A stretch of DNA of 64,000 nucleotides from Mucilaginibacter rubeus (GTDB lineage Bacteria > Bacteroidota > Bacteroidia > Sphingobacteriales > Sphingobacteriaceae): assembly GCF_014643835.1 (NCBI RefSeq), contig NZ_BMKD01000004.1, forward strand, positions 372,001-436,000, written 5' to 3'. The notes beneath the pieces were generated by a model. That model had not been told where the DNA came from, made no database searches, and saw only the letters and a program-made list of their open reading frames with translations. The position numbers and the translations under genes were made by a program. Below, piece after piece: positions 6,755 through 60,699 of this stretch; the first letter of the stretch is position 1, and each line of letters begins with the position of its first letter.

Positions 6755-6772
6755 TGTTAATATTCCTTTTAA

Positions 6773-6853
6773 TGTAGGGACGCATAATTGCGTCTCCCGT
6801 ACACTCATTCAAAGCGTTTTATCTTACTGGAGACTTAATTATGTGTCTCTACA
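6773..6853. repeat. Imperfect inverted repeat of the GACGC..GCGTCTC type
   Basis: A 25-nt arm at 6773-6797 (TGTAGGGACGCATAATTGCG and on) and its imperfect complement at 6829-6853 flank a 31-nt spacer. A related half (GACGCATCACACGCGTCTCT) is at 39407-39426. The GTAGAGACGC...GCGTCTC word resembles short non-autonomous elements common in Bacteroidota intergenic DNA. Confidence 0.6.
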
Positions 6854-6897
6854 TAAAATATTTTTAAATTTGATAAATACAGTTTGCAGGTAGACAG

Positions 6898-6953
6898 TTC
6901 ATTGCCGTTGACTTTAATGTTGTGCAACAGCCACTAAAACCAACGGCAATGAA
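6898..6953. repeat. 56-bp hairpin element, copy 1
   Basis: Perfect 13-bp arms TTCATTGCCGTTG (6898-6910) and CAACGGCAATGAA (6941-6953) enclose 30 nt containing GTTGTGCAAC. A near-identical copy is at 39468-39522. The interior is conserved as strongly as the arms. It lies just upstream of the 6989 gene. Confidence 0.8.
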
Positions 6954-6988
6954 TATTTTATTCAAACATAAGATACTAAATCCCCCTT

Positions 6989-8493: not shown

Positions 8494-8503
8494 TAACAAG
8501 GTA

Positions 8504-8554
8504 TCGCGATGCAATCGCTAAACCATATTAAGCGCTCGTTGCAAACGAGCGCAA
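8504..8554 (+). repeat. REP unit 1 (RAYT-associated)
   Basis: GCGATGCAATCGC hairpin, then AAACCATATTAAGC, then the hairpin GCTCGTTGCAAACGAGC and GCAAG. Same architecture as the units at 8572, 9236 and 9294. Confidence 0.8.
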
Positions 8555-8571
8555 GAACTAAATAAAATACC

Positions 8572-8635
8572 CTTGCGCTCGTTTATAACGAGTGCTTAAC
8601 ATGGGTTTACGTTTGTAACGTAAATCCATGTTAAG
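8572..8635 (-). repeat. REP unit 2, inverted
   Basis: Read on the minus strand: a first hairpin ACGTTACAAACGT, then an AAACCCATGTTAAGC-like linker, then ACTCGTTATAAACGAGC. Hairpin bases differ from unit 1, but the first stem stays fully paired and the second changes only one end pair. Its left half starts 17 bp after unit 1, so the two form a head-to-head pair. It overlaps the last codons of the transposase relic. Confidence 0.75.
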
Positions 8636-9201
8636 CTTTCACGGAGATAAAGCCCCTCTCCAATAAAGTCACTTCCAATAGTCCCCGTTCCCCGGCATAG
8701 TTAATCGCCGAGCTATATATGTAATGTTCAGGATAGCTTACTATTTCTGCCCGTACGGGATTATCATGAATGTAATCCAATTTTTGAAAAAGTATTTCTT
8801 CCCGGTCGCACTCAATGGAATGATAGCCATCCCGCCACACTTTATAATTTTGTATCCGATCATCAAACCTTGCATTATATTGAAAGCGATATAACATCCA
8901 ATCCTCCGGCTTTCATTCTCTTCTTTTATTAGTTTAATGATTTGTTTGTTGGTATGTTTTTTAAAATCGCGCACAATATCAGGTAGTCTTACTGGGCTTC
9001 TTGCGGATACCAGCAAATGGAGGTGATTAGTCATCAGACAAAAAGCATATATCTCCAAACCTTTGTTTTTTGGCAGTAAATAAGGGAATCAATAATAAGT
9101 TGTTTGTAAGATGGCCTGATAAATACATCAATCCAATCAACTATTGTAAATGTTACAAAGTGAATTTCCCCATGGTTTCTAACTCTGTATTGATGCGACA
9201 T
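8631..9201 (-). pseudogene. REP-associated tyrosine transposase (RAYT, Y1_Tnp), two frameshifts
   Basis: Reading minus from the ATG at 9201: HFVTFTIVDWIDVF, then a frame change in an A-run near 9070-9075, then LEIYAFCLMTNHLHLLVSA (the HxH HUH motif), DFKKHTNKQIIKLI, a second frame change near 8895-8900, then MLYRFQYNARFDD, VWRDGYHS and YIHDNPVRAEIVSYPEHYIYSS. Start, stop and all Y1-family motifs are present, so the gene is full length (about 190 codons) but needs one extra base at each of two homopolymers. RAYTs are single-copy nucleases that act on REP hairpins, and four REP units flank this one. Sequencing error at both runs is the alternative. Confidence 0.85.
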
Positions 9202-16618: not shown

Positions 16619-16716
16619 TATGCCAATGGCAGTAAAAATTGCCTGTAATTGTCAGTTCGTGAACAAGGCGACAGGATAACTTACTTTGTGATGACAGGTT
16701 GGCAGGACTGTTTGAG

Positions 16717-16752
16717 GTAAAAGGCGAAAGGTTGAAGGCAAAAGGTTATTAT
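16717..16752. repeat. Degenerate tandem-word half-element (AAAGGCGAAAGG type)
   Basis: GTAAAAGGCGAAAGGTTGAA then GGCAAAAGGTT: a short purine word repeated with variation. It resembles, in the same or opposite sense, the words of the element between rpsH and rpsN (27335-27402). No second arm is obvious here. Confidence 0.5.
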
Positions 16753-18651: not shown

Positions 18652-19203
18652 TTATTCGCCTTTTTCAGCGTTTTCTTCGTTTTCAGAAGGTGCAGGTGCT
18701 TCAGCAGCCGGTTCTTCTTTAACGTCTTCAACTAATACAGCTTCTTCTGCAGCTACAGGAGCAGCAGTTTTAGCTTTTGCACCAGAACCACCACGACGAC
18801 GGGTTGATTTCTTAGCAGGAGCAGCAGCGTCAGCACCGTAAACAGTGTTGTAATCAACAAGCTCGATGATTGCCATTTCAGCGTTATCGCCTAAACGGTT
18901 TTCTAACTTGATGATACGGGTGTAACCACCCGGACGGTTAGCAATTTTTTCAGCGATTTCGCGGAAAACGATTGATGTAGCGTCTTTATCCTGCAGGTAG
19001 CTGAATACTGTACGACGTGAGTGCGTAGTATCGTTTTTTGATTTTGTTAAAAGTGGCTCAACATAACCGCGTAAAACTTTTGCTTTTGCTAATGTTGTAG
19101 TGATACGCTTGTGTAAAATAAGCGAAGATGCCATGTTAGCCAGCATCGCTTTGCGGTGGCTGGTAGTACGGCCTAAGTGATTGTTTTTGTTTCCGTGTCT
19201 CAT
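18652..19203 (-). CDS. rplQ: Ribosomal protein L17
   Basis: L17 of the large subunit. The conserved core [41 protein letters not shown] is followed by a C-terminal extension of about 55 residues that is first basic ([15 protein letters not shown]) and then acidic ([15 protein letters not shown]). Total 183 residues against about 120-130 in most bacteria; such tails are frequent in Bacteroidota. Last gene of the block. Confidence 0.97.
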
Positions 19204-19280
19204 TGTTTTATATATTTCACGTGCATACCGTTGGGCGATAGGCTCAAGCCCTCGGAATTATGCTTTCGCTTAATGTTTGC

Positions 19281-19369
19281 AACAAGAATCAAGAGCCAAG
19301 AAATCAAGAGTCAAGATATAAAATTCCTGATTCTTGCTTCTCACCGTCTTGCTTCTTTCTTATTCTTCG
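19281..19369. repeat. Degenerate tandem-word inverted repeat, rplQ-rpoA gap
   Basis: Left arm 19281-19316 repeats AAGAATCAAGAGCC-like words. Right arm 19328-19369 repeats their complement (GATTCTTGCTTCT, GTCTTGCTTCTTTC). Together they would fold into a long imperfect stem in the mRNA. Confidence 0.7.
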
Positions 19370-20352
19370 TCTAACTTAAATTTAGACAGGTTCATGCCAA
19401 AAGATAAACCTTTTGATTTAACCAGGTCCTGGATCTCAGTTAATGATTTTTTACCAAAGTTCCTGAATTTTAACATGTCAGCAACATCGTACGATACCAG
19501 ATCAGCCAGGCTGCGGATATCAGCAGCTTTAAGGCAGTTAAGGGCACGTACAGAAAGGTCAAGATCAACCAGTTCGGTTTTAAGGATCTTGCGCATGTGC
19601 AGGATCTCTTCATCAACTTCTTTGGTTTCTTCTTTAGCCTGTGCTTCAAGCATCATGTTTTCATCACTGAACAGCATGAAGTGCTGGATCAGGATCTTAG
19701 CTGCTTCTTTCAAAGCATCTTCAGGATGGATCGAACCATCGGTAGCAATATCCAATACTAATTTTTCATAGTCGGTTTTTTGCTCAACACGATAGTTTTC
19801 GATGGTATATTTTACGTTTTTGATCGGCGTATAGATCGAGTCGATAGCGATCACACCTACGTTAGCGTCAGGATTTTTATTTTCCTCGCTTGGTACGTAA
19901 CCACGGCCCTTGCCTACAGTAAGCTCAACTTCAAGCGTTACAGCCGGGTCCATATTGCAAAGTACCAAATCAGGATTTAATACAGTAAAGTTGTTAGAGA
20001 ATTTGGTGATATCTCCTGCTTTAAATGCATCCTGGCCATTTACAATAACAAATATTTTCTCGCTGTCGCCAGATTCACCTGTTTTCTTAAAACGAACTTG
20101 TTTAAGGTTCAGGATGATCTCGGTTACGTCTTCAACAACACCTTTGATGGTTGAAAATTCATGCGTTACTCCCGAAAAACGAACAGAAGTAATTGCATAA
20201 CCTTCAAGTGATGAAAGTAAGATACGACGCAGAGCATTACCAATGGTTACACCAAAACCTGGTTCTAACGGACGAAATTCAAACGTACCATCAAAATCAT
20301 TTGCTTTTTGCATGATAACCTTGTCTGGTTTTTGAAATGCTAAAATTGCCAT
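19360..20352 (-). CDS. rpoA: DNA-directed RNA polymerase subunit alpha
   Basis: A 330-residue RNA polymerase alpha subunit. The N-terminal domain ([36 protein letters not shown]) dimerises and seats beta and beta-prime. The C-terminal domain ([39 protein letters not shown]) is the helix-hairpin-helix part that contacts UP-element DNA and activators. Normal length. Note that a free-standing alpha-CTD-like protein occurs at 9384. Confidence 0.98.
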
Positions 20353-20390
20353 TTATATCCTTTATTTATTGTTTACTTGATAATTGATTT

Positions 20391-20532
20391 GAGATATGGG
20401 ATTTGAGATGTGAGATTTACTCTGCTGTTCAAACGCTTATTCAAATCTTTTGTTTGTGATTTGCATATATACGAAAACCAGAAATGAGATTTGAAAAAAC
20501 TCTCAAATCTCACATCTGATATCTCATATCTT
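20391..20532. repeat. Degenerate tandem-word inverted repeat, rpoA-rpsD gap
   Basis: Left arm 20391-20417 (GAGATATGGGATTTGAGATG...) and right arm 20499-20532 (CTCAAATCTCACATCTGATA...) are complementary repeats of a GAGATTTGAGAT word, with about 80 nt between. Confidence 0.72.
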
Positions 20533-21139
20533 ATTTAGAGTACAACTCGACGATCAGGTTTTCCTTGATGTTTTCAGGGATCTCATCGCGGTTAGGATAG
20601 TTAAGGAATTTACCTGTAAGGTTGTTCGCATCCCACTCTAACCAGCTGTATTTGTTGATTCTTCTACCGGCTACTGAAGTAGTGATAGCCTCTAATGATT
20701 TAGATTTTTCACGTACTGCAACCACATCACCAGCTTTCAATGCATATGAAGCGATGTTTACAACAGCACCGTTAACAGTGATGTGTTTGTGGTTAACCAA
20801 TTGGCGAGCTGCCGAACGTGTAGGAGCAATACCTAAACGGAAAACAGCGTTATCTAAACGTGCTTCCAGGAATTTCAACAGGTTTTCGCCTGTGATACCT
20901 TCTTTAGCAGAAGCGCGGTGAAATAAGTTTTCGAACTGACGCTCTAATACACCATAAGTGTATTTAACTTTTTGTTTCTCTTGCAACTGAGTAGAGTACT
21001 CTGATTGCTTTCCACGGCGTTTTGAAGCACCGTGCATGCCCGGAGGATAGTTTTTACGTTCTAACGCTTTGTCCGGACCGAAGATCGGCTCACGGAAACG
21101 ACGGGCAATTTTGGATTTTGGTCCTGTATATCTGGCCAT
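20531..21139 (-). CDS. rpsD: Ribosomal protein S4
   Basis: A 202-residue primary 16S rRNA-binding protein of the small subunit. N-terminal helices ([15 protein letters not shown]) are followed by the S4 RNA-binding domain ([39 protein letters not shown]). The N-terminal zinc-binding cysteines of some S4 proteins are absent (C-minus form). The end, [14 protein letters not shown], is the family C-terminus. Confidence 0.98.
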
Positions 21140-21206
21140 TTTTGTGTGTTCTTAAAGTATCATGCAGCCTGCAGCTGCCGAATCTTAGCTTTAAAAAATA
21201 TGTTAA

Positions 21207-21596
21207 TTAAACTCTTCTTCTTTTTGAAGGACGGCAACCGTTGTGTGGAAGCGGTGTAATATCTTTAATCGTAGTTACTTCGATACCTGCAGTTTGCAAA
21301 GTACGGATAGCTGACTCACGACCGGCACCTGGGCCTTTTACAAATACTTCAACTTTACGTAAGCCTAAGTCATAAGCAACTTTACCGCAATCGGCAGCAG
21401 CTTGTGAGGCAGCGTAAGGAGTATTCTTTTTTGAACCTTTGAAACCCATTTTACCAGCTGATGACCAAGAAACTGCCTGGCCGGTTTTGTTGGTAAGGGT
21501 GATGATGATGTTGTTGAAAGTAGCATTGATATGCGCTTCGCCAACAGGCTCAACAATCACAATGCGTTTTTTGGTTACTTTTTTAGCTTTAGCCAT
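21207..21596 (-). CDS. rpsK: Ribosomal protein S11
   Basis: A 129-residue platform protein of the 30S subunit. [19 protein letters not shown] and the C-terminal [18 protein letters not shown] match the family. It contacts the Shine-Dalgarno helix region of 16S rRNA. Full length. Confidence 0.98.
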
Positions 21597-21698
21597 TTTT
21601 TAAATCTGTTACTTACGAATTACTGGATCAATACGATAATCCGGACCCGTAAAAATTACTTAATGAGGTATTCCTGACGAATTAAAGGTTATCAAGCG

Positions 21699-21735
21699 GC
21701 TATTAACCAATCTCTAACCTCTAAACACCAATCAC
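21699..21735. repeat. Half-element of CTAATCTCTAAC-type words, rpsK-rpsM gap
   Basis: ACCAATCTCTAACCTCTAAACACC and onward repeats a short word. The same word family appears at 47397-47425 (CCCTAATCTCTAATCACTAA). A matching second arm is not evident in this 138-nt gap. Confidence 0.45.
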
Positions 21736-22112
21736 TATTTAGTAGCTTTCTTTTTGTTAGCAACTGTTTTACGTTTACCTTTACGGGTACGTGAATTGTT
21801 TTTAGTACGCTGACCACGTAATGGTAAACCTTTACGGTGACGTGTACCACGGTAACAACCAATATCCATCAAACGCTTAATGTTAAGCTGCACTTCTGAA
21901 CGTAATGCACCTTCAACCTTAATTTGGTCGTTAATAATTCCGCGTATAGAAGATAATTGCTCATCGGTCCAGTCTTGTACTTTGATGTTAAAATCAATAC
22001 CAGCATCAGTCAAAATTCTTTGAGCTGTTGAGCGACCAATACCGAAAATGTAAGTAAGTCCGATTTCTCCTCTTTTATTCTTTGGTAAATCAATACCTGA
22101 TATCCTTGCCAT
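21735..22112 (-). CDS. rpsM: Ribosomal protein S13
   Basis: A 125-residue head protein of the 30S subunit that contacts the large subunit and P-site t[23 protein letters not shown] and [20 protein letters not shown] are diagnostic. The basic tail ends [13 protein letters not shown]. Confidence 0.98.
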
Positions 22113-22121
22113 ATTTCTTGT

Positions 22122-22198
22122 AATTTATTGAGTTATCGAATTATTGAACTATCGAATCGCTATCATCAGTAATTCAATCATTCTCCAATTCAGTAATT
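22122..22198. repeat. Degenerate tandem-word inverted repeat, rpsM-rpmJ gap
   Basis: Left arm 22122-22157 (TTATTGAGTTATCGAATTAT...) and right arm 22166-22198 (CAGTAATTCAATCATTCTCC...) are imperfect complements built from an AATTATTGA-type word. It fills nearly the whole 91-nt gap. Confidence 0.68.
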
Positions 22199-22203
22199 TT
22201 TTC

Positions 22204-22320
22204 TTAGCCCTGGCGTTGTTTAAACTTCGGGTTCTTTTTGTTAATAACGTAAAGTTTCCCGTTACGGCGGATGATTTTGCAATCAGCGCTGCGCTTTTTG
22301 ATGGATGCTCTAACTTTCAT
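22204..22320 (-). CDS. rpmJ: Ribosomal protein L36
   Basis: A 38-residue protein: [20 protein letters not shown], then [21 protein letters not shown] at 22320, stop at 22204. It has only one Cys, and the Cys-Cys-Cys-His zinc set of the classic L36 is gone (Cys14 only; position 17, after IIR, has no Cys). This is the zinc-free form, common in this phylum. It lies 4 bp downstream of infA. Confidence 0.96.
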
Positions 22321-22324
22321 CTTT

Positions 22325-22543
22325 TTATTTATATCTATAGGTTATTCTACCCTTTGTTAAATCGTATGGACTCATTTCCAGTTTCACCCTGTCGCCAGGA
22401 AGAATTTTGATGTAGTGCATACGCATTTTGCCCGATATGTGCGCTATAATCTCATGACCATTTTCAAGTTCAACTCTGAACATTGCATTTGACAATGCCT
22501 CTCTAATTGTACCGTCTTGCTCAATCGAAGATTGTTTAGCCAT
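22325..22543 (-). CDS. infA: Translation initiation factor IF-1
   Basis: A 72-residue OB-fold (S1-like) protein that occupies the ribosomal A site during initiation. [40 protein letters not shown] and [20 protein letters not shown] are as in all bacterial IF-1. Full length. Confidence 0.98.
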
Positions 22544-22607
22544 ATTTTGTTGATTATTACTTAATTATCCGCCCTAAAACCGGGATGCAAAATTAATAAA
22601 AAATTAT

Positions 22608-23399
22608 TTAATTATTATTTTTTTCTTTTAAAACATTTTCTACGTAATCAAACGTCGATAAAATGTCTGGAGTACCTTTTCGTACCGCTACTGTATGCTC
22701 ATAATGTGCCGAAGGTTTCTTGTCAGATGTTGAAACTGTCCAGCCATCATCCCAAAACTTAACACCGGCACGGCCGGCATTGATCATGGGCTCAATGGCT
22801 ATCACCATGCCTTCTTCCAGTTTGATACCGGCACCGCGTTTGCCATAGTTAGGTACTTCGGGCTTTTCGTGCAGCTTTAATCCTACACCATGGCCAACAA
22901 GTTCCTTTACTACACCAAAGCCGTTCTTTTCGGCATGCTCCTGTACCGCGTATCCTATATCACCAATACGCATCCCTACAACCGCCTTTTCAACACCCAG
23001 CTTTAAGCATTCCTGCGTTACACGCATCAGCTTTTTAACCTGGTCGTTAACTTCACCAATGGCAAAGGTATAAGCCGAGTCGCCGTAGTATTTATTTAAA
23101 ACAACGCCGCAATCAACTGATACCAGGTCGCCCTCAGTTAAAACATGCGATCCGGGGAAGCCGTGTACAACCTGGTCATTCAGGGAGATACACAGTGAAT
23201 AAGGAAATCCGTGATAGTTTAAAAAGGCAGGAATCCCGCCGTTGTCCCGTATAAAGGTTTCGGCAAGCTTATCCAGTTCAATTGTTTTAACACCCGGAGC
23301 AATAACCTTAGCTATCTCTCCGAGTGTTTTTGAAACAAGTAAAGAACTTTCTCTTATGAGTTCTATCTCTTCGACAGACTTATAATTGATTTTTGACAT
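22608..23399 (-). CDS. map: Methionine aminopeptidase, type I
   Basis: A 263-residue cytosolic metalloprotease that removes the initiator Met from nascent proteins. The five metal ligands are visible: Asp in VSVDCGVV, Asp in YYGDSAYTF, His in GHGVGLKLHE, Glu in AIEPMIN and Glu in HYEHTVAV. It lacks the zinc-finger extension of type Ic. It follows secY by 6 bp. No adk is present between secY and map. Confidence 0.97.
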   Translation of the reverse strand: MSKINYKSVEEIELIRESSLLVSKTLGEIAKVIAPGVKTIELDKLAETFIRDNGGIPAFLNYHGFPYSLCISLNDQVVHGFPGSHVLTEGDLVSVDCGVVLNKYYGDSAYTFAIGEVNDQVKKLMRVTQECLKLGVEKAVVGMRIGDIGYAVQEHAEKNGFGVVKELVGHGVGLKLHEKPEVPNYGKRGAGIKLEEGMVIAIEPMINAGRAGVKFWDDGWTVSTSDKKPSAHYEHTVAVRKGTPDILSTFDYVENVLKEKNNN

Positions 23400-23405
23400 T
23401 GCTAA

Positions 23406-24749
23406 TTAAATCGCTGTCGGACTGGTACCGGCAGCGGCAGGCATAGCTGTACGTCCCTTAATCCGTCCGGTTTTCATTAAACCATCATAATGGCGCATCA
23501 ACAGGTGACTTTCTATTTGCTGTAATGTATCCAAAACAACACCCACCAGGATGATCAGCGATGTACCGCCGAAGAACCTTGCGAATACCGGAGATACACC
23601 AACCAAACTGGCCAATGCCGGGATGATTGCTATAATAGCCAGGAATACTGATCCTGGTAAAGTGATCTTTGAAATTACGCCATCAATAAACTCTGCAGTA
23701 GTACGGCCTGGTTTAATGCCCGGGATAAAGCCACCATTCTTCTTCATATCATCGGCCATTTGGTTAGGATTAACCGTAATGGCGGTATAGAAGTAAGTGA
23801 ACAGGATGATCAATATCCCAAACAACAGGTTATGCTCCCATGAGTTATAGTTAGCTAAAGCTATCAATATACCGTTTGATGATACGTTAGGGAAAAACTG
23901 CGATACAGTTTGCGGGATAAACATCAATGCCTGAGCAAATATGATTGGCATTACACCTGCAGCATTAACCTTTAAAGGTATATACTGGCGTACACCGCCA
24001 TATTGTTTGTTACCCACAATACGTTTAGCGTATTGTACCGAAATTTTACGTGTTCCCTGTACTATCAGTATAGTAAACATTACTACACCAATAAGACCTA
24101 CGATCTCCACAATGAAAGCAATTAAACCACCGGCACCGCCATTACGCGAAACGAACTCGGTAGTAAACGCCATTGGTAACTGAGCAATGATACCCACCAT
24201 AATAATAAGTGAGATACCATTACCGATACCTTTATCGGTGATCTTTTCGCCTAACCACATTACAAATAATGTACCTGCCGTTAACACAAACGTGTTAATG
24301 AAGATAAAGGTAAAAGGATCGGCAATAGTCCTTGCATCAGCAGCAACCTGCGACTTAAGGTAACCTATAGCCTGTAAAAAGGTAATACCTATTGTCAGGT
24401 AGCGGGTCCATTGGTTAAGCTTGTTGCGACCGCTTTCACCTTCTTTTTGCAATTTGGTAAAATACGGAACGGCAATACCCAGCAGTTGCACCACAATTGA
24501 AGCCGAAATGTAAGGCATAACACCTAACGCGAAAATAGAGGAACGTGAAAACGATCCTCCTGCAAACATATTCAGCAATCCTACTAATCCTTCTGCCTTT
24601 TGAGTTGATGCTACCGCGGCGTTAACGCCCGGTAAAACCACGAATGAGCCTACACGATATATTAAAAGAAATAAGAGTGTGTTAGTAATACGCACTCTCA
24701 GATCTTCGATTTTCCAGATATTGGATAATGTGGTGAAAAATTTCTTCAT
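23406..24749 (-). CDS. secY: Preprotein translocase subunit SecY
   Basis: A 447-residue inner-membrane channel of the Sec system with ten hydrophobic segments. Recognisable parts are LLIYRVGSFVVLPGVN (TM1), the plug-side GGSFSRSSIFALGVMPYISA (TM2) and RIVGNKQYGG with VNAAGVMPIIFAQ. The C-terminus is slightly extended (AMPAAAGTSPTAI). It exports unfolded proteins with SecA, SecE and SecG. Confidence 0.98.
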   Translation of the reverse strand: MKKFFTTLSNIWKIEDLRVRITNTLLFLLIYRVGSFVVLPGVNAAVASTQKAEGLVGLLNMFAGGSFSRSSIFALGVMPYISASIVVQLLGIAVPYFTKLQKEGESGRNKLNQWTRYLTIGITFLQAIGYLKSQVAADARTIADPFTFIFINTFVLTAGTLFVMWLGEKITDKGIGNGISLIIMVGIIAQLPMAFTTEFVSRNGGAGGLIAFIVEIVGLIGVVMFTILIVQGTRKISVQYAKRIVGNKQYGGVRQYIPLKVNAAGVMPIIFAQALMFIPQTVSQFFPNVSSNGILIALANYNSWEHNLLFGILIILFTYFYTAITVNPNQMADDMKKNGGFIPGIKPGRTTAEFIDGVISKITLPGSVFLAIIAIIPALASLVGVSPVFARFFGGTSLIILVGVVLDTLQQIESHLLMRHYDGLMKTGRIKGRTAMPAAAGTSPTAI

Positions 24750-24754
24750 CGAAA

Positions 24755-25201
24755 TTATAACTTAACTATGGTACCACCTGCAGCTTCAATAGCTTTTTGA
24801 GCTGTAGCAGTAAATGCATGTGCTTTAACTTCTAATTTGGCAGTAAGCTCACCACGACCCAGGATCTTAACCAGGTCGTTACGTGATACCAAACCGTGCT
24901 CTTTCAAAGTATCAAAATCAACAGCAGTAAGCGAAAACTTTGTTACTAATTCCTGAAGTACGTCAAGGTTTACACCTGTGTACTCAACACGGTTAGGGTT
25001 TTTAAAGCCCACTTTAGGCACACGGCGCTGTAAAGGCATCTGACCGCCTTCAAAGCCTACCTTGGTGCTGGTACCTGAACGTGAACCGGCGCCTTTGTGG
25101 CCACGGGTTGACGTACCGCCACGGCCAGAACCTGTACCACGGCCAATTCTTTTTCTATTTTTGGTTGAACCTTCTGCAGGTTTTAAATTACTTAAATTCA
25201 T
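24755..25201 (-). CDS. rplO: Ribosomal protein L15
   Basis: A 148-residue large-subunit protein. The start at 25201 (MNLSNLKPAEGSTKNRKRIG) matches the family; an ATG 18 nt upstream is not used by homologues as recalled. The Gly/Arg-rich GRGTGSGRGGTSTRGHKGAG tract threads into 23S rRNA. It lies 5 bp upstream of secY, the classic spc-operon order. Confidence 0.97.
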   Translation of the reverse strand: MNLSNLKPAEGSTKNRKRIGRGTGSGRGGTSTRGHKGAGSRSGTSTKVGFEGGQMPLQRRVPKVGFKNPNRVEYTGVNLDVLQELVTKFSLTAVDFDTLKEHGLVSRNDLVKILGRGELTAKLEVKAHAFTATAQKAIEAAGGTIVKL

Positions 25202-25205
25202 GATA

Positions 25206-25385
25206 TTAAATATTTTCAACCGCTACCAGGTGGTTCACTTTCCTAACCATCCCAACTATAGCAGGTGTAGCCTCAACTTCCACACTGTGGTTAATTTTAC
25301 GCAAGCCTAAAGCCTCGATTGTTTTTTTCTGGCGTTCCGTTCTGTCGATCACGCTCTTAATCTGTGTTATTTTGATCTTAGCCAT
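25206..25385 (-). CDS. rpmD: Ribosomal protein L30
   Basis: A 59-residue protein, [20 protein letters not shown] at the start, [20 protein letters not shown] and [13 protein letters not shown] at the end. ATG at 25385, TAA at 25206. It sits between rpsE (6 bp) and rplO (4 bp), its standard position. Confidence 0.97.
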
Positions 25386-25391
25386 GACTGA

Positions 25392-25910
25392 TTATCCGTT
25401 AAATACTTTACCTAAACTAATTCCGCGCTGTTGTGCTACTGTATTTGCATCACGTAACTGGGCTAATGCCGATACGGTTGCTTTTACCACGTTGTGCGGG
25501 TTTGATGAACCTTTTGATTTTGCCAATACGTTGTGTACACCTGCCGATTCTAATACGGCACGCATAGCACCACCAGCAATTACACCGGTACCGTTAGCAG
25601 CTGGTTTAATGAAAACAAAACCACCGCTAAATTTACCAATTTGCTCATGAGGTACAGTTCCGTTAATGATTGGAACTTTTACCAGGTTCTTTTTAGCATC
25701 ATCAATGCCTTTAGCAATAGCTTCAGTTACCTCTTTAGCTTTACCTAAACCGTAACCTACAACACCGTTTTCATCACCTACTACCACGATAGCAGAGAAG
25801 CTGAAAGTACGGCCGCCTTTGGTTACTTTGGCAACACGCTGTATGCTTACCAAGCGGTCTTTTAATTCGATCTCGCTTGTTTTTACTCTTTTTATGTTGA
25901 TTGTTGACAT
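25392..25910 (-). CDS. rpsE: Ribosomal protein S5
   Basis: A 172-residue protein of the 30S body near the mRNA entry channel. Double-stranded-RNA-binding N-terminal part: [40 protein letters not shown] and [19 protein letters not shown] are conserved. Full length. Confidence 0.98.
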
Positions 25911-25922
25911 TTCTCTTTTCGA

Positions 25923-26273
25923 TTAAAAGTTTAAACCACCTTCACGTGCACCTTCGGCCAATGACTTAACACGGCCATGGTACAGGTAACCGTTCCTGTC
26001 GAAAACCACATCTTTAATACCTGCAGCGATAGCTTTTGAAGCTACCAGTTTGCCTACAGCTACTGATTGATCTGATTTTGTACCTTCAGCGGCAAAATCT
26101 TTTGATAAAGATGATGCTGAAACTAAAGTTTTACCGGTTACATCGTCAATGATCTGCGCATAAATACCTTTATTACTTCTAAATACTGACAGGCGGGGAC
26201 GTTCTGTTGACCCTGAAAGGCGTTTCCTGATGCCTTTTTTAATCCTGTCTCTTCTTGATAGTTTAGCTCCCAT
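25923..26273 (-). CDS. rplR: Ribosomal protein L18
   Basis: A 116-residue 5S rRNA-binding protein. Basic N-terminus ([18 protein letters not shown]), then [20 protein letters not shown], and the C-terminus [19 protein letters not shown]. Confidence 0.98.
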
Positions 26274-26278
26274 GACGA

Positions 26279-26836
26279 TTATTTTTTAGATGCTGATTTA
26301 CCTGCTTTTCTTCTCAAAATCTCGCCCTGGAACTTGATACCTTTACCTTTGTAAGGCTCTGGTGCGCGTAATGAACGGATTTTAGCTGCTACCTGGCCAA
26401 TTAACTGTTTGTCAATTGATTCAAGGATGATGGTTGGGTTTTTACCCTTATCAGCAGTGGTTGTAACTTTAATTTCTTGCGGTAATTCAAATACATAGTG
26501 GTGAGAGAAACCCAACACTAAATCTAATGTATTACCGGTATTGGTGGCACGGTAACCTACACCCACTAATTCCTGGGTTACTTTGTAACCTTCGGTTACA
26601 CCAATTACCATGTTATTTAAAAGCGCGCGGTATAAACCATGTAACGCTTTGTGACGTTTTTGATCAGACGGGCGTTGAACCAGTAACTGACCGTCTTCCT
26701 GTGCAATAGTGATATCGCTATCAATTGCCTGTTGCAACTGGCCTTTAGGACCTTTTACGGTAACAACATTATCTGCTGAAACTGTAATGGTTACTCCCTG
26801 TGGCAGTGCTATCGGTGCTTTTCCTACTCTTGACAT
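26279..26836 (-). CDS. rplF: Ribosomal protein L6
   Basis: A 185-residue protein near the sarcin-ricin loop, with two similar domains. [19 protein letters not shown] starts it, and [20 protein letters not shown] is the invariant C-terminal signature. Full length. Confidence 0.98.
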
Positions 26837-26853
26837 TGCTTAAATTTCTTCTG

Positions 26854-27252
26854 TTAATAAACGTAGCATAAAACCTCACCACCAACATTTTGCTGACGAG
26901 CTTCTTTATCAGACATAACGCCTTTAGAAGTTGACAGGATGGCGATACCTAAACCATTTAATACACGTGGCATGTTTTCCATACCTGCGTATTTCCTCAA
27001 ACCTGGTTTGCTGATGCGCGAAATGCTGCGGATAGCAGAAATTTTAGTTATCGGGTGGTATTTCAAAGCAACTTTGATAGTGCCCTGAGGACCATTATCC
27101 TCAAACTTATAATTTGCAATGTAACCTTTGTCGAAAAGCACCTTAGTGATTTCCTTCTTCAGATTTGATGCAGGAATTTCAACAACCCGGTGGTTGGCTT
27201 TAATAGCATTCCTTACTCTTGTAAGATAATCTGCGATTGGATCTGTATTCAT
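26854..27252 (-). CDS. rpsH: Ribosomal protein S8
   Basis: A 132-residue central-domain 16S rRNA-binding protein. MNTDPIADYLTRVRNAIKAN and ILSTSKGVMSDKEARQQNVG are diagnostic. In E. coli S8 is the translational repressor of its operon. Here the gene is preceded by a 148-nt gap holding a tandem-word inverted repeat instead of direct coupling to rpsN. Confidence 0.98.
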   Translation of the reverse strand: MNTDPIADYLTRVRNAIKANHRVVEIPASNLKKEITKVLFDKGYIANYKFEDNGPQGTIKVALKYHPITKISAIRSISRISKPGLRKYAGMENMPRVLNGLGIAILSTSKGVMSDKEARQQNVGGEVLCYVY

Positions 27253-27334
27253 TTTATTGTGTTATGACGGTGGTTTCCTTCCGGTAACATCCCGGGCGAC
27301 CTTCCATCGGTTAATTCATTCATTTTAAGCTCAA

Positions 27335-27402
27335 TGCATAAAGCAAAAAGCCTAAAGCTTTTATGCCTTACGCTTTTCGCCTTTTGCTTTCAGCTTTTGC
27401 TT
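27335..27402. repeat. Degenerate tandem-word inverted repeat, rpsN-rpsH gap
   Basis: Left arm 27335-27360 (GCATAAAGCAAAAAGCCTAA...) and right arm 27361-27402 (TTTTGCTTTCAGCTTTTGCT and CGCTTTTCGCC) are complementary runs of AAAGCAAAAGGC-like words with almost no loop. Confidence 0.7.
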
Positions 27403-27670
27403 ACCAGCTTGCTTTTTTTACTCCCGGGATCTTGCCTTCAAGAGCCATTTCACGGAATGTAACACGTGAAATGCCAAACTGACGCATATAACCACGAGGG
27501 CGGCCGGTTAATTTGCAACGGTTGTGCAGTTTTACCGGTGATGATGCTTTTGGTAATTTATCTAAAGCAGCGTAATCGCCAGCTTCTTTTAAAGCAGCTC
27601 TTTTTTCAGCGTATTTAGCTACTAATTTTGCGCGCTTTACTTCACGTGCTTTTACACCTTCTTTAGCCAT
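27401..27670 (-). CDS. rpsN: Ribosomal protein S14 (zinc-free type)
   Basis: An 89-residue head protein of the 30S subunit. The start at 27670 ([20 protein letters not shown]) is chosen over an ATG 30 nt upstream because it matches the family N-terminus. [20 protein letters not shown] and the ending GVKKASW are standard. It has one Cys and no CxxC pairs, so it is the longer zinc-independent form. The first 8 bases overlap the end of rplE. Confidence 0.97.
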
Positions 27671-28226
27671 TGCTATTTTGATTTTTAAATGGTAAACCAA
27701 ATTGTTTCAACAACTCCAATGCTTCAACATCGTTTGTTGCGGAGGTTACAAAGGTAATATCCATACCTTGGATTTTATTGATTTTGTCAATATTTATCTC
27801 AGGGAAGATAATTTGCTCAGTAATACCTAATGTATAGTTGCCGCGGCCATCAAAACCTTTATCGTTGATGCCTTTGAAGTCACGGATACGTGGCAGGGCT
27901 ACAGCGATTAAACGATCCAAAAACTCGTACATTGTGTTGTCACGCAGGGTAACACGTACGCCAACCGGCATATTTTTACGCAATTTAAAGTTTGAGATAT
28001 CTTTTTTAGATTTTGAAGATACTGCTTGCTGACCAGTGATGGTAGTTAACTCGGTGATGGTGTTTTCGATCAATTTCTTGTCGGTAGTTGCACCACCTAC
28101 ACCCTGGTTAATGGCAATTTTCTCCAATTTAGGAACCTGCATTACGCTTTTGTACTGAAATTTATCTTTCAGTGCGGTGCGGATTTCGTCCTTGTATTTT
28201 GATTTTAATCTTGGTACGTAAGTCAT
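27663..28226 (-). CDS. rplE: Ribosomal protein L5
   Basis: A 187-residue 5S rRNA-binding protein of the central protuberance. [36 protein letters not shown] and [18 protein letters not shown] are family signatures. Its start overlaps the rplX stop by one base. Confidence 0.98.
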
Positions 28227-28555
28227 TACTTAATTTCCTCCCCTGATTTTTTTGCTACCCTTACTAATTTGCCGGCGTCATTTTTTTGACGGCCAACACG
28301 GGTTGTATTACCTGTTTTAGGATCAACCAGCATTAGGTTTGAAATATGTATAGCAGCTTCTTGTTTAACAATTCCGCCGTTAGGGTTAGCAGCATTAGGT
28401 TTAGTATGTTTTGATACCATATTGGCACCTTCAACAATAGCCCTGTTCTTATCTACCAAAACCTCAACGATTTTGCCTTGTGATCCTTTTGAATCGCCGG
28501 CGATAACTTTAACCAGGTCGCCTTTACGGATCTTTAATTTTACTTTCTTTTCCAT
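28226..28555 (-). CDS. rplX: Ribosomal protein L24
   Basis: A 109-residue assembly-initiator protein of the 50S subunit with a KOW motif: [40 protein letters not shown] follows. Full length, one base before rplN. Confidence 0.97.
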
Positions 28556-28556
28556 G

Positions 28557-28925
28557 TTACAATACCTCCGGTGCTAATGATACAATTTTCATAAATTGTT
28601 TCTCGCGCAGTTCCCTTGCAACAGGGCCAAAGATACGTGTACCTCTTGGCTCGTCCTGGTTGTTTAACAACACAGCTGCGTTATCGTCGAAACGGATATA
28701 TGAACCGTCTTTTCTGCGGATCTCTTTTTTAGTGCGCACAACTACGGCTTTTGATACGGTACCTTTTTTCACGTTACCTGATGGTAAAGCGCTTTTTACG
28801 GTAACCACAATTTTATCGCCGATTGATGCATACCTTTTACCGGTACCACCCAATACACGGATCACTAAAACTTCTTTAGCGCCGCTATTGTCGGCTACTG
28901 TTAATCTTGATTCCTGTTGTACCAT
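28557..28925 (-). CDS. rplN: Ribosomal protein L14
   Basis: A 122-residue protein at the subunit interface. [40 protein letters not shown] and the end [10 protein letters not shown] match the family exactly. Confidence 0.98.
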
Positions 28926-28926
28926 C

Positions 28927-29181
28927 TTATTTAGCCCTTTCTAAAATTTCAACTAATCGCCAGTTTTTGGTTTTGCTCAGCGGGCGGGTTTCCATGATCA
29001 ATACTGTATCGCCTACGCCACAGGTATTGTTTTCATCATGAGCCTTGAATTTGGTAGTTTTCTTTACGAATTTACCATAGATAGGGTGTTTCACCTTACG
29101 CTCAACGGCCACAACAATAGATTTTTCCATCTTGTTGCTTACTACGAGGCCGGTACGTGTTTTTCTTAAATTTCTTTCCAT
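28927..29181 (-). CDS. rpsQ: Ribosomal protein S17
   Basis: An 84-residue OB-fold 16S rRNA-binding protein. [19 protein letters not shown] and [19 protein letters not shown] are diagnostic. Confidence 0.98.
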
Positions 29182-29201
29182 TTTTACTAATGTTTAAAAA
29201 A

Positions 29202-29411
29202 TTAATTCTTTTCAGAAGCGGCCGCCGCTTTACGTTTTGTTAATTCAGTATTTAACTGAGCAATTCCTTTGCGTACTTTGGTTATACGGGACGGGTTCTC
29301 AATAGCTGAAACTGCATGAGCAAATTTCAATTTGGTAAGGGTAGCCCTTTCCTCGCTGATCTTAGCAACAATCTCTTCAGTTGATAGGCCCAAAATTTCT
29401 GAGTTCTTCAT
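29202..29411 (-). CDS. rpmC: Ribosomal protein L29
   Basis: A 69-residue two-helix protein near the nascent-chain exit: MKNSEILGLSTEEIVAKISE, ending in a Lys/Ala tail (KRKAAAASEKN). It is separated from rplP by a 124-nt gap with a tandem-word inverted repeat, whereas in most bacteria the two genes abut. Confidence 0.95.
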   Translation of the reverse strand: MKNSEILGLSTEEIVAKISEERATLTKLKFAHAVSAIENPSRITKVRKGIAQLNTELTKRKAAAASEKN

Positions 29412-29419
29412 TTTTCTTT

Positions 29420-29530
29420 GTTATTTGTTGTCTGTTGGTAAGTTTAAACGTTGTATTGTTTTTATTTGAATGGTGAAATTCGGCATCTAACTTCACAACA
29501 TTAAAACTTTACAACTCTTCAACTAACTCC
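29420..29530. repeat. Degenerate tandem-word inverted repeat, rplP-rpmC gap
   Basis: Left arm 29420-29461 (GTTATTTGTTGTCTGTTGGT...) and right arm 29490-29530 (ACTTCACAACATTAAAACTT...) are imperfect complements built of GTTGTAAAGTTT-like words. Confidence 0.6.
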
Positions 29531-29535
29531 TCAAT

Positions 29536-29958
29536 TTATGCTTCTACGTAATCCCTACGTACAATAAATTTAGTTTGCACCGGTAATTTCTGTGCTGCAA
29601 GGCGTAAAGCCTCTTTAGCAACTTCCAAAGGCACGCCTTCGGCTTCAAAAATGATCCTTCCGGGGCGTACTACCGCAACCCAGTATTCAGGAGCACCTTT
29701 ACCTTTACCCATACGTACCTCTGCAGGTTTCTTGGTTACAGGTTTGTCAGGGAATATCCTGATCCAAACCTGTCCTTCACGTTTCATAAAACGTGTTACA
29801 GCGATACGTGCAGCCTCGATCTGACGGCTGGTAATCCATGCCGCTTCGAGTGATTTAACACCAAAAGATCCGAATGAAAGTTCAGCACCACGGGTGGCTA
29901 AACCTTTCATCCTGCCTTTTTGCATCTTTCTGAACTTCGTTCTTTTTGGCTGTAGCAT
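29536..29958 (-). CDS. rplP: Ribosomal protein L16
   Basis: A 140-residue protein that organises the A-site tRNA region of the 50S subunit. [40 protein letters not shown] and the end [11 protein letters not shown] are characteristic. Confidence 0.98.
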
Positions 29959-47396: not shown

Positions 47397-47425
47397 AATC
47401 AATCCCTAATCTCTAATCACTAATA
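47397..47425. repeat. Half-element of CTAATCTCTAAT-type words
   Basis: AATCCCTAATCTCTAATCAC followed by TAATACC, before the 47431 gene's stop. Same word family as 21699-21735. Confidence 0.5.
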
Positions 47426-47430
47426 CCAAA

Positions 47431-48690
47431 CTACTCCATCATCAACCTGCGGATCAGCTCCGCACTTTGCGCTTTGCCCTCTTCAAGCCGGTGGCTAAAG
47501 AATGCCTGCGTATCGTTAAAGTGTTTCTTATATCCCTCCATATCCCCATATCCAATAATAGCCGACCATTCCCTCACCGCCGAGTGAAACTCCAGGTCAT
47601 CGCCGCGGATGGTTTTATCGTACAGGGCTGTTTCCAGTGATTCTTCCAGCAGCTCTTCGTTCTTAAACAGGTATTCGGCAATACCCAAGCGCAGACGGAA
47701 GGGCGGGGTTTGGCAAATGAGGTTATCATAGGGATTAACGCCGAGGTGGTACCAGGCATCAACCATGCTCAGGATACTGAGGTGCGAGTTTGGCTTTTGA
47801 TGATCGGCATGCTGTGACAGCGAGAACTCCTTCATCACCGTATCATTGAGCATAATAGGCTTGCGGCTTTCGTGAAAAACAAAGTCACGCGCGCGGTAAA
47901 GGCGCTGCTTAAACGCATCGGCTTCTTCCTTGATCATCAGCTTAAACAACTCCGACTCCGATTCGGCATAGCGCTTCACCTGCTGGCGGGCATACGGGTT
48001 GAGGATAGCAAGCCCGGCATAAACGTGGGCCTTATAGCTGAAGATGCGGAGGGTGGTCAGGATCTTCACATTATCTATCCCCCCAATATATGAAGCGTTT
48101 TCCCAGGGGAAAAACCCGGCCGATTTCCAGGCTGTGCCCATGCTCTCAAAACCAACGTGGGTAACGGCCTGGGTATCGGCTACGATGCGGTCGTGCTCGT
48201 GGTAGTCGGCAATTTCAACTATATTGCTGCCAATGGCCGTAAACAGGTCGTACATGCGCTGGTAGGCATCGGGCGTTGAGCGGTGCGGGATCAGGATGAG
48301 GGTTTGCCCGGCGGGTTCAAACCCCGGGCCGTGCATGCCATGAAAAGTAACTATCTGGGCATCGGCAGGCAGGTGCTTTTCAAAGGTGGCAATCTCCGGG
48401 GACTTAACCGAAGTTTGCCCGGCCACTATAGCGCCGTACTTGGTTGAAGGGCCATACTCGGCAACCACACGCTCCATGCTATCGGCCTCAACCGAATAGA
48501 TGATCAGGTCGTTGATGCGGGCAACGTCGCTGCCGTGATCCATAACGGTGATGCCGTGGGGCTTAAGCTCTTCTTCAAGCTTTTCACGGTTGGCAGGCAG
48601 GTCGCAGCCCGAAACGGTGTAACCGGCCTTTGCGAAAGCCTTTGCGTACAGGCGGCCCATGTCGCCTAACCCAATAATACCTATATTCAT
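47431..48690 (-). CDS. Prephenate dehydrogenase-like protein (TyrA family)
   Basis: A 419-residue NAD(P)-dependent oxidoreductase. MNIGIIGLGDMGRLYAKAF is the Rossmann dinucleotide motif. SVKSPEIATFEKHLP, VTFHGMHGPGF and ADTQAVTHVGFESMG fit the catalytic region of prephenate dehydrogenases. The long helical C-terminal half is as in the fungal TYR1-type enzymes rather than the short bacterial TyrA. It would convert prephenate to 4-hydroxyphenylpyruvate in tyrosine synthesis. No other aromatic-pathway gene lies nearby, so a different substrate is possible. Confidence 0.82.
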   Translation of the reverse strand: MNIGIIGLGDMGRLYAKAFAKAGYTVSGCDLPANREKLEEELKPHGITVMDHGSDVARINDLIIYSVEADSMERVVAEYGPSTKYGAIVAGQTSVKSPEIATFEKHLPADAQIVTFHGMHGPGFEPAGQTLILIPHRSTPDAYQRMYDLFTAIGSNIVEIADYHEHDRIVADTQAVTHVGFESMGTAWKSAGFFPWENASYIGGIDNVKILTTLRIFSYKAHVYAGLAILNPYARQQVKRYAESESELFKLMIKEEADAFKQRLYRARDFVFHESRKPIMLNDTVMKEFSLSQHADHQKPNSHLSILSMVDAWYHLGVNPYDNLICQTPPFRLRLGIAEYLFKNEELLEESLETALYDKTIRGDDLEFHSAVREWSAIIGYGDMEGYKKHFNDTQAFFSHRLEEGKAQSAELIRRLMME

Positions 48691-49567: not shown

Positions 49568-49706
49568 TTTTTTTGATTTCAGAATTACACATACTTCATG
49601 TCATTGCGAAGCGTGGCAATCGCATACGCCTTGCTGCGAGATTGCCGCGTCGCGCCATACACACAGGCAGCCCCGCTCCTCGCAATGACATAATTTTATA
49701 AACATC

Positions 49707-55267: not shown

Positions 55268-55270
55268 CGA

Positions 55271-55443
55271 GTCAGAAGTGGGAGGTCCGAAAGTCCGAAA
55301 GAAAGCATTTTTGTGTGAAAATTGAGAGATCGAAAGTCCGTAGGAAAAACCTTAGATTTGCGCAATTAAATTAATTAACGCAAGATTTCCGGCAATAGAC
55401 TTCTCTATCTTTCGGACATCCGACTTACGGACTTTCGGACTTC
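55271..55443. repeat. Degenerate tandem-word inverted repeat (GTCCGAAA type)
   Basis: Left arm 55271-55305 (GTCAGAAGTGGGAGGTCCGA, AAGTCCGAAAG) and right arm 55400-55443 (CTTTCGGACATCCGACTTAC, GGACTTTCGGAC), about 95 nt apart. It fills the gap between mlaF-like and methyltransferase genes. Confidence 0.7.
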
Positions 55444-55449
55444 AAAAAA

Positions 55450-57534: not shown

Positions 57535-57682
57535 GTTGGAAGTCTTAAGTCGAGAGTCTAAGTAGGAAGTTAAAAGTCCTGAGTAGTAATAATATATTAT
57601 TTACTCAGGGCTTTTGCATTTAAAGCCATATACTTGAAAAATCAATTTTTGACTTAGAACTCCGAACTTAAGACTTAGAACT
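57535..57682. repeat. Degenerate tandem-word inverted repeat (AGTCTTAAGTC type)
   Basis: Left arm 57535-57575 (TTGGAAGTCTTAAGTCGAGA...) and right arm 57650-57682 (GACTTAGAACTCCGAACTTA, AGACTTAGAAC) flank a terminator hairpin (57572-57615). The right arm runs into the start codon of the Gfo gene. Confidence 0.68.
57572..57615 (+). terminator. Terminator of the 56461 lipoprotein
   Basis: AAAGTCCTGAGTA and TACTCAGGGCTTTT, one G-U pair, AT-rich loop, then TGC. Confidence 0.75.
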
Positions 57683-58648: not shown

Positions 58649-58698
58649 AATCTATAATAAACTTTGCTGGCGCAAGTTTTGTGCGATAGCCGGAGCAC

Positions 58699-58758
58699 GG
58701 CTAACTTGTGCCTTCTACGTCATGCAAAGGGACAAAGCAGGAAAAGCACAAGTCAGCC
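58699..58758. repeat. Imperfect inverted repeat (GGCTAACTTGTGC)
   Basis: GGCTAACTTGTGC (58699-58711) and GCACAAGTCAGCC (58746-58758), one mismatch, 34-nt centre. Convergent gap between the Gfo and metallophosphoesterase genes. A possible terminator, lacking a T-run. Confidence 0.55.
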
Positions 58759-58821
58759 ACCCACATACCCAGGGCTCAAGACTTTCGCTAAAAATACTCC
58801 ATAATAAATCCGAAATTCTAT

Positions 58822-60605: not shown

Positions 60606-60695
60606 TCTGAATCAGAATTTTCAAAATGCTTGAATTTTCAGAATTAAACACATCACATTCCGGACATTCTTAAATTCTGAAAATTCTGATTCAGA
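60606..60695 (-). terminator. 18-bp inverted repeat after the GDPD gene
   Basis: TCTGAATCAGAATTTTCA (60606-60623) and TGAAAATTCTGATTCAGA (60678-60695), exact, 54 nt apart, 5 bp after the GDPD stop. It belongs to the tandem-word type (CAGAATTTTCA words repeat between). It may end the operon. Confidence 0.6.
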
Positions 60696-60699
60696 CAAT

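Follow-up and report, generated by a model that had tools for sequence, protein, structure and literature searches.

Intergenic stems built from short degenerate words at gene ends in a Sphingobacteriaceae chromosome

The window analysed here, a 64-kb stretch of a Sphingobacteriaceae chromosome, carries on its minus strand the ribosomal operon from rplC to rplQ. An earlier note on this DNA had counted six gaps of 90 nt or more in that operon, and the gene layout gives exactly these six and no more: rplP-rpmC (124 nt), rpsN-rpsH (148 nt), rpmJ-rpsM (91 nt), rpsM-rpsK (138 nt), rpsD-rpoA (178 nt) and rpoA-rplQ (156 nt). Read on the sense strand, an array of a degenerate word starts each gap, no more than about 10 nt past the stop codon, and in five of the gaps the complementary word comes after it. 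We refer to this class of intergenic elements as word stems. Their arms are short arrays of a word of 7 or 8 nt, whose core is fixed and in which one or two letters vary freely. The stems and single arms of the window are listed below; RNA folding was scored, per gap, against 200 dinucleotide shuffles (z, and number of shuffles folding as well).

19280..19359, minus strand: stem of the rpoA-rplQ gap, CAAGAnn word, beginning 2 nt past the rpoA stop (fold z -3.95, 2/200 shuffles as good)
20386..20530, minus strand: stem of the rpsD-rpoA gap, GAGATnT word directly past the rpsD stop (fold z -5.42, 0/200)
21707..21734, minus strand: single arm in the rpsM-rpsK gap, TTAGAGA/TTGGTGA word directly past the rpsM stop (gap 21597-21734, fold z -2.17, 5/200)
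22113..22203, minus strand: stem of the rpmJ-rpsM gap, GAATTAnT 8-nt word (fold z -2.15, 5/200)
27330..27400, minus strand: stem of the rpsN-rpsH gap, AAAGCnn word (fold z -5.15, 0/200)
29420..29535, minus strand: stem of the rplP-rpmC gap, GTTGTAA word (fold z -2.29, 4/200)
16714..16750, plus strand: single arm, AAAGGnn word, between divergent genes (seen in the sequence; the gap aligns to genome G001 at 0.92)
47397..47430, minus strand: single arm, TTAGAGA word directly past the stop of gene 47431-48690 (seen in the sequence)
55268..55449, plus strand: stem, AGTCCGAA word, occupying the whole of a codirectional gap between stop and start (seen in the sequence)
57535..57682, plus strand: stem, AGTCnnA word enclosing an inner hairpin, reaching from stop codon to following start codon (fold z -7.89, 0/200)
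60606..60699, minus strand: longer, almost perfect stem (CAGAATTTTCAGAATTT) directly past a stop codon (fold z -6.87, 0/200)

Imperfect inverted repeats of tandem words had been claimed for five of the operon gaps and one arm alone for the sixth, and this is what is found, with z between -2.15 and -5.42 for the five and two of them (22113 and 29420) beating the shuffles only modestly. The same design was correctly placed elsewhere in the window, as stems at 55268, 57535 and 60606 and single arms near 16714 and 47397. Shuffled gaps mostly fold less well than the real ones; a smaller gap absent from the earlier list (21140-21206) gave z -2.52, with 0/200 shuffles as good. A search for inverted repeats alone recovers only part of the stems, because the arms are imperfect. 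The words had been described as locus-specific; they do differ among the operon gaps, but the window has TTAGAGA both at 21707 and at 47397 and AGTC words both at 55268 and at 57535, and the words are also met at further loci and in other species.

The period of the words is a feature of noncoding DNA. Self-similarity of the window gave 30 matches at a lag of 7 compared to a mean of 1.1 in 10 shuffles, and 9 matches at a lag of 8 compared to 0, all of them noncoding. Noncoding matches at lag 7 also exceeded coding ones in 400 kb of G014 (148/28), 400 kb of G012 (38/13) and five operon regions (229/8), yet 82-91% of the sequence compared is called coding (G001, G014, L050 and similar names are labels of compared genomes or of relatives' loci). 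The lag spectra give the 7-nt (or 8-nt) tandem periodicity in intergenic DNA that is a trait of heptanucleotide simple-sequence repeats. The window spectrum also contains 37 matches at lag 24, compared to 0.3 in shuffles.

Arrays were counted in six data sets (G001, G014, G012, G021, part of G023 and the window; 891 gaps of 50-400 nt, some of them orthologous between the window and G001). Clustering at a loose threshold placed 146 arrays in about 20 word clusters, among them GAGATnT, AAAGGnn/AAAGCnn, AAGTCnn, CAAGAnn, TTAGAGA, GAATTAnT, TTTCGG, GTTCATrG, GTCCATrG, GTTGTAA, GCAGTnn, AGTATCA and others; the existence of a common dictionary rests instead on counts of identical-word pairs. In G001, 18 of 724 pairs of arrays from different loci have identical consensus words, compared to 1.27 after letter shuffling (maximum 4 in 100 runs), with 4/146 compared to 0.27 in G021 and 2/181 compared to 0.21 (maximum 2) in G014. 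Identical words were found between genomes as well: G014-G001 (13/740, 2.0 in shuffles), G021-G001 (10/609, 0.66), G014-G021 (2/340, 0.34) and G014-G012 (1/84, 0.06); there were none between G012 and either G021 or G001. The word cores are conserved with one or two positions free, and mismatches within arrays cluster at some phases (88 of 122 arrays exceed the null mean).

The GAGAT stem pattern occurs in at least 120 stretches of named genomes, several of them orthologous between related species and not independent. The 80 listed belong mainly to Mucilaginibacter, Pedobacter and other Sphingobacteriaceae, with others in further Bacteroidota, four metagenome-assembled genomes of other phyla and one cyanobacterium. 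A simple GAGAT array was present in 7 of 148 Bacteroidota genomes, with varied spelling only in the family of the window and as a pure repeat otherwise. The AAGTC array was present in 12 of 148 and is spelled variably in another family too; this search is weaker because a backward-read control pattern matched 10/148. At L206, in a genome of another family, an AAGTCnn array lies inside an open frame, which by eye reads ..KVESQKSKVES..; the array appears to have been inserted in frame into a protein gene. The idea that words of 7 and 8 nt (coprime to 3) serve as multi-frame stop codons was dropped, several words having no stop codon (by eye).

The position of the elements is kept between relatives while the words change, as the earlier note had supposed. 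The operon gaps were compared at orthologous positions in 20 relatives and the window (three relatives only partly); arms are generally present and some gaps lack them. The closest compared genome, G001, has 36% of the sampled 31-mers in common with the window, and in it 3 of the 11 window elements carry a different word (27330, 47397 and 55268). The flanks of 27330 and 55268 are 97-100% identical to G001 over 300 nt, and those of 47397 are 93-99% identical per 100 nt. The 27330 stem, with flanks unbroken compared to G001 and G018, is the same in G018 and is replaced by TTTCGG in G001, TTAGAGA in G014, AGTATCA in G021 and AAAATTC in G023; at the 47397 position G001 has a TTTCGG-word arm; and at 55268 G001, G018 and G014 have a GCAGT-word stem in common (97-100% identical among them, flanking genes 91-93%) where the window has the AGTCCGAA stem. 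The 19280..19359 stem is identical in G001, 0.94 in G018 and replaced by a TTAGAGA-word stem in G014. Two of six operon gaps differ between G018 and G014, and five of seven between G009 and G013, two of these as presence/absence. Other elements vary less: the GTTGTAA word of the rplP-rpmC gap is also found in G001, G018, G014, G021 and G023, the 57535 gap of G001 has the same word and is 12 nt shorter, and the 60606 stem occurs in G001 with small indels. By eye, the rpsD-rpoA gap of the 20 relatives has the GAGATnT word in 13, another hairpin in 6 and is unclear in 1; GAGATnT stems also occur in the rpsM-rpsK gap of some other species. The 19 relatives having the rpmJ-rpsM gap divide into 7 with a GAATTAnT-type word stem, 11 with a different hairpin (ACAACGGTGG..CCGTTCGG type) and 1 with both (L050).

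Such replacements invite comparison with a mobile palindromic family of the REP/BIME or MITE type, copied by a transposase: whole stems are present, absent or replaced between relatives, and the GAGAT form recurs across Sphingobacteriaceae and sporadically elsewhere. Full-length copies were looked for with three stems. BLAST of the window 55268 stem gave, among the matches listed, arm-length matches in six relatives and only weak, short matches of the loop (E of at least 0.17); the G014 TTAGAGA stem has no full-length donor in its own genome (27/27 candidates scored), and the G001 TTTCGG stem has none among 40 scored of 85 candidates. These stems are not evident recent copies of another locus, because the three match elsewhere only at arm length, and the copying of the whole element with its loop, as in MITEs, was not found in them. 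Many words coexist in one genome, and the arms are arrays of degenerate words in place of a constant family sequence. By composition, no REP-type GTAG/CGTC tag lies just outside or inside the GAGAT arms, whose outermost unit often starts with T. Phage records gave no megablast match to 19200-29600, and the only match of the GAGAT stem pattern in a viral contig collection is a near-pure repeat in a GC-rich contig. We consider a mobile family highly improbable. Horizontal regulatory transfer is the swapping of intergenic alleles; it would explain replaced gaps with flanks unbroken, but not how word stems arise. The import of alleles by recombination in the flanks is possible, and the origin of the stems is not explained by it. 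That one gap can hold stems of different words in close relatives is not easily accounted for by ordinary repeat expansion, duplication or transposition.

The arms have a preferred order. A complementary partner lies in the same gap for 84 of 144 arrays, G-first in 71, C-first in 9 and tied in 4 (both arms of one stem may be counted). The 60 arrays without a partner, a few of which are whole stems merged into one array (e.g. 27330), are near stops G-rich in 26, C-rich in 4 and tied in 2, and near starts C-rich in 21, G-rich in 4 and tied in 3; binomial p values for this asymmetry assume independent arrays, which these are not. G-first order is a geometry of the element, with the G-word at the 5' edge of the gap and the C-word at the 3' edge on either strand, and no proof of a link with transcription, because a G-first stem reads G-first on both strands. 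A transcription-direction rule for the G/C asymmetry was dropped, the reverse complement of a G-first stem being again G-first, and single arms were dropped as evidence of transcription, the same symmetry giving a G-word at the 5' edge and a C-word at the 3' edge. The geometry would match a head-to-head join of two ends, each extended at its 3' side with the same word; head-to-head telomere fusions have this G-first geometry.

The two arms of a stem are spelled independently. Over 62 arm pairs, mean identity was 0.72 in the best alignment of the partners and 0.68 in the best one displaced by entire units; compared with one another, units of the same arm gave 0.655. Partner arms showed no significant extra likeness compared to same-word arms of other loci in five word families (own/cross-locus scores: GAGAT 19.8/19.1, 17 stems; AAAGG 17.6/17.3, 5 stems; TTTCG 18.3/17.4, 4 stems; CCATGG 16.0/18.4, 5 stems; AAGTC 16.8/12.2, 4 stems, the largest excess, p 0.21); this test left out the window, L031, L033, L034, L035 and L049 as duplicates and families with fewer than 3 stems, and its GAGAT family includes some orthologous gaps. 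It is a fairer test than a comparison over 60 stems, in which the own partner outscored every other arm in 13 (mean own score 17.8, mean best other 20.6), because the latter takes the best of many others. Facing free letters in 120 GAGAT stems, from partly orthologous loci, agree 28 times compared to 38.8 by shuffling. Inverted duplication, or snap-back, was rejected from arm alignments, partner scores and facing letters: the arms are not mirror copies.

Neighbouring units were compared in the same way. In 968 units of 240 GAGAT arms the free letter is A in 325, T in 321, G in 289 and C in 33, and neighbouring units are equal in 242 of 728 cases, compared to 229 expected. A second, partly overlapping pool gave unlike neighbours for AAAGG (17/88 equal, 30.3 expected), CAAGA (2/34, 13.0) and AAGTC (1/10, 4.0), and a third count gave 19/102, 4/44 and 9/50 equal for these words, respectively. 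The identical or near-identical units of heptanucleotide simple-sequence repeats were not found, with GAGAT and GAATTAnT as partial exceptions. Independently spelled arms make fold-back or inverted duplication a poor fit. Units that are unlike their neighbours, or nearly independent of them, do the same for plain unit slippage in most of the words tested, and whole-element copying is likewise a poor fit.

The distribution over gap types bears on function. Arrays were found in 77 of 551 codirectional gaps (shuffle mean 10.5), 17 of 148 convergent gaps (1.7) and 17 of 192 divergent gaps (5.6). Within codirectional gaps, the stop codon is the nearer edge for 52 arrays, 36 of them no more than 10 nt away, and the next start is the nearer edge for 49, 25 of them at that distance; a first arm usually begins no more than 10 nt from a stop codon. 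Inverted repeats of any kind that beat all 12 shuffles (483 gaps; chance about 8%) are strongly enriched in convergent gaps (57-79%), less so in codirectional gaps (16-45%) and near chance in divergent gaps (0-17%). GAGAT stems occupy divergent gaps at 7 of 105 classifiable loci (from 120) compared to a 21.5% baseline (p 3e-5, orthologues counted separately), the baseline being that of Mucilaginibacter gaps of 50-400 nt. These figures, the folding of most gaps beyond their shuffles, the positions kept across the genus and the conservation of the 55268 gap beyond its flanks fit a selected mRNA structure: an intercistronic or 3'-terminal RNA stem kept as an exonuclease block, a partial terminator or an insulation of the next start, in which only pairing matters and the sequence drifts. 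Free drift leaves a common dictionary with conserved cores unexplained; partner arms match no better than same-word arms of other loci to a significant degree, facing free letters mismatch above chance, partnerless arrays are common, and the depletion of word arrays overall from divergent gaps is not significant (17/192 compared to 94/699, p 0.11). We regard this explanation as a real, if somewhat unlikely, possibility. The GAGAT avoidance of divergent gaps, the fold energies, the long-kept positions and the 55268 conservation are compatible with a useful stem at mRNA 3' ends; the many partnerless arrays and the lack of significant arm co-adaptation speak against a finely tuned structure. The earlier suggestion of a selected mRNA structure has the folding, the GAGAT avoidance and the 55268 conservation on its side, and the lack of significant arm co-adaptation in the five word families against it. 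Compensatory change was infrequent in the rpsD-rpoA alignment (double change in only 5 of 27 predicted pairs). Intrinsic (Rho-independent) terminators have a GC-rich stem with a T run after it; T runs follow some of the inner hairpins (by eye), but the word stems themselves are rich in AT, and several of them are located within the ribosomal operon.

Our preferred reading, held tentatively, is that these are word-written intergenic stems kept at gene 3' ends, perhaps as weak mRNA stems. The data directly support a common dictionary, placement at the edges of gaps, arms in G-first order and spelled independently, and whole-stem exchange with flanks unbroken. The earlier note had also offered a process building stems from random words; the building from words fits best, but the words come from a common dictionary and are neither random nor peculiar to a locus. 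On this reading DNA synthesis would put down the word and so create the arms, which would be neither copied from another locus nor folded back from one arm, and existing stems would then pass between strains through recombination in flanking genes. Past stop codons the transcribed stem may be harmless or mildly useful, and stems would persist there, possibly protecting 3'-end or intercistronic mRNA and insulating neighbouring cistrons, whereas insertions at promoters would be removed. More specifically, and in our opinion quite improbably, a Sphingobacteriaceae word-writing synthesis might extend both 3' ends of a break in intergenic DNA with the same word, its core fixed and one or two letters loosely specified, and join them in a repair resembling telomere fusion, leaving G-first stems behind stop codons and continually rewriting even the spacers of the ribosomal operon.

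Several results weigh against writing as the origin of the stems. G012, with few arrays, has no within-genome excess of identical words (0/16 pairs). The 55268 gap is identical between G018 and G014 (130/130) with flanking genes at 91-92%, which suggests either constraint, hence function, or a short recombination tract. The stem swaps may be old alleles imported by homologous recombination and not new writing. A profile search for RVT_1 (PF00078) in 10 genomes found none in G014 (one contig), G021, G023, G012 and G162; a standard reverse transcriptase as the writer is not supported, since 5/10 genomes lack the domain, G162 being rich in GAGAT arrays, and a divergent reverse transcriptase could escape this profile. 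Equal neighbours are in excess in the second pool for GAGAT (70/166, 52 expected) and GAATTAnT (10/14, 6.6 expected), and in the third count GAGAT has 11/18 (three arrays), pointing to some slippage in these two words. Compared to a flat 25%, only CAAGA deviates significantly (p 0.007; AAAGG 0.08, AAGTC 0.16), and unlike neighbours could reflect survivorship, perfect repeats being lost. These last points belong to a slippage explanation, in which slippage of the polymerase lengthens random heptamers, two complementary arrays come together through chance or selection, and no arrays but imperfect ones survive. It is also favoured by pure microsatellites of the same words in other families, and one survey found heptanucleotide repeats to be the most frequent class in most of its genomes, slippage being proposed in the parts of the sources consulted (PMC4679880, PMC4692102). 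Against it stand the near-independent GAGAT neighbours of the larger count, the unlike units of AAAGG and CAAGA, and a dictionary common to different loci and genera; nor does it predict the same word on both sides of a gap or the G-first rule. We hold the slippage explanation to be unlikely.

Inverted stems built of words have, in titles and abstract beginnings of the open-licence literature, no description for Bacteroidota that we found. Cyanobacterial STRR heptanucleotides are families of tandem heptanucleotides in direct repeat; their likeness to word stems lies in forming such families. The closest precedent is the intergenic heptamer repeats of Xanthomonas (GGGAATC) and Nostoc (GGGGAYT), which agree with word stems in having 7-nt units in intergenic DNA (PMC4692102). 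As far as the consulted part of that source goes, the Xanthomonas repeats lie on average 28 nt from the 5' neighbouring open reading frame, mostly between the same genes in two species, with length and sequence varying; each genome has one main word in direct repeats, with no inverted partner mentioned, unlike word stems, which have about 20 word clusters, degenerate units, paired arms and word exchange. TAACTGA repeats, known from Beggiatoaceae, Cyanobacteria and five Bacteroidetes and placed for the most part immediately before start codons in the main genome, resemble word stems as intergenic heptamers within Bacteroidetes, but consist of a single invariant word in direct repeat without stems in the text consulted (PMC4679880). 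REP/BIME elements (20-40 bp, GTAG/CGTC tags, sequence families, with proposed roles in termination and mRNA stability in the part of the source consulted) are also intergenic stems (PMC3733652), whereas word stems have tandem-word arms and loops unmatched between loci. DRT10, a bacterial phage-defence system that writes 9-nt repeats in protein-linked cDNA (PMC12632851, a bioRxiv preprint), resembles the proposed writing, as telomerase does, in synthesising DNA of a short repeat; unlike word stems, it involves no chromosomal insertion in the text consulted, and the absence of RVT_1 from half the genomes searched separates the two further. Word stems are set apart from the heptamer intergenic repeats by the multi-word dictionary, the paired G-first arms with independent spelling and the stem exchange.

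Intergenic heptamer repeats are known in a few bacteria, their origin having so far rested on a guess of slippage, and the present data go against simple slippage for most words tested. Should a writing process exist, bacterial chromosomes would be subject to a new type of activity that generates sequence; if selection of mRNA stems is true, Bacteroidota would keep intercistronic stems by position and not by sequence. Strain collections of Mucilaginibacter or Pedobacter make the question directly testable.

Rfam 15 gave 0 matches at the gathering score in the 64-kb window, and several further structures were seen in the operon gaps. The rpsD-rpoA gap (window 20386-20530 and relatives) has three arms, a shorter inner partner arm following the first; the first arm can pair with this nearby short arm, after which T-rich DNA follows, or with the distal arm, making alternative structures possible. 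Species without a word stem in the rpmJ-rpsM gap (e.g. L037, L041) have a conserved ordinary hairpin, ACAACGGTGGCCCGCCGTTCGG, and in L050 the word stem sits between the stop codon and this hairpin. A conserved motif, GATGGAAGGTC-stem-GGAAACCACCATC, lies in the 3' part of the rpsN-rpsH gap (window 27253-27314, minus strand), immediately before rpsH; its inner stem varies in length. The motif was found in 16 distinct sequences of the genus (the extraction pattern did not pick up L045), double changes affect 2 of its 8 predicted outer pairs, and it is possibly a ribosomal-protein leader RNA. Upstream of rplQ, in the 3' part of the rpoA-rplQ gap (window 19204-19263, minus strand), the strongly conserved GCATAATTCCGAGGGCTTGA..CGCCCAACGGTATGCACGTG has 12 predicted pairs with 0 double changes (11 of 18 distinct sequences analysed) and is a candidate leader RNA.

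Other stem sequences were seen as well. A recurring stem family, GTCATTGCGAGGAACGAAGCAATC..GATTGCTTCGTTCCTCGCAATGAC, is found in window 49568-49706 and in many G014 gaps at the same gene-end positions as word stems; in the 49568 gap of G001 a TTTCGG-word arm stands in its place. Further stem sequences lie at window positions 6755-6988, 8494-8740 and 58649-58821 (GTAGGGACGCATAATTGCGTCTC, CGCTCGTTTGCAACGAGCGC, GCGCAAGTTTTGTGCG), their content rearranged compared to G001.

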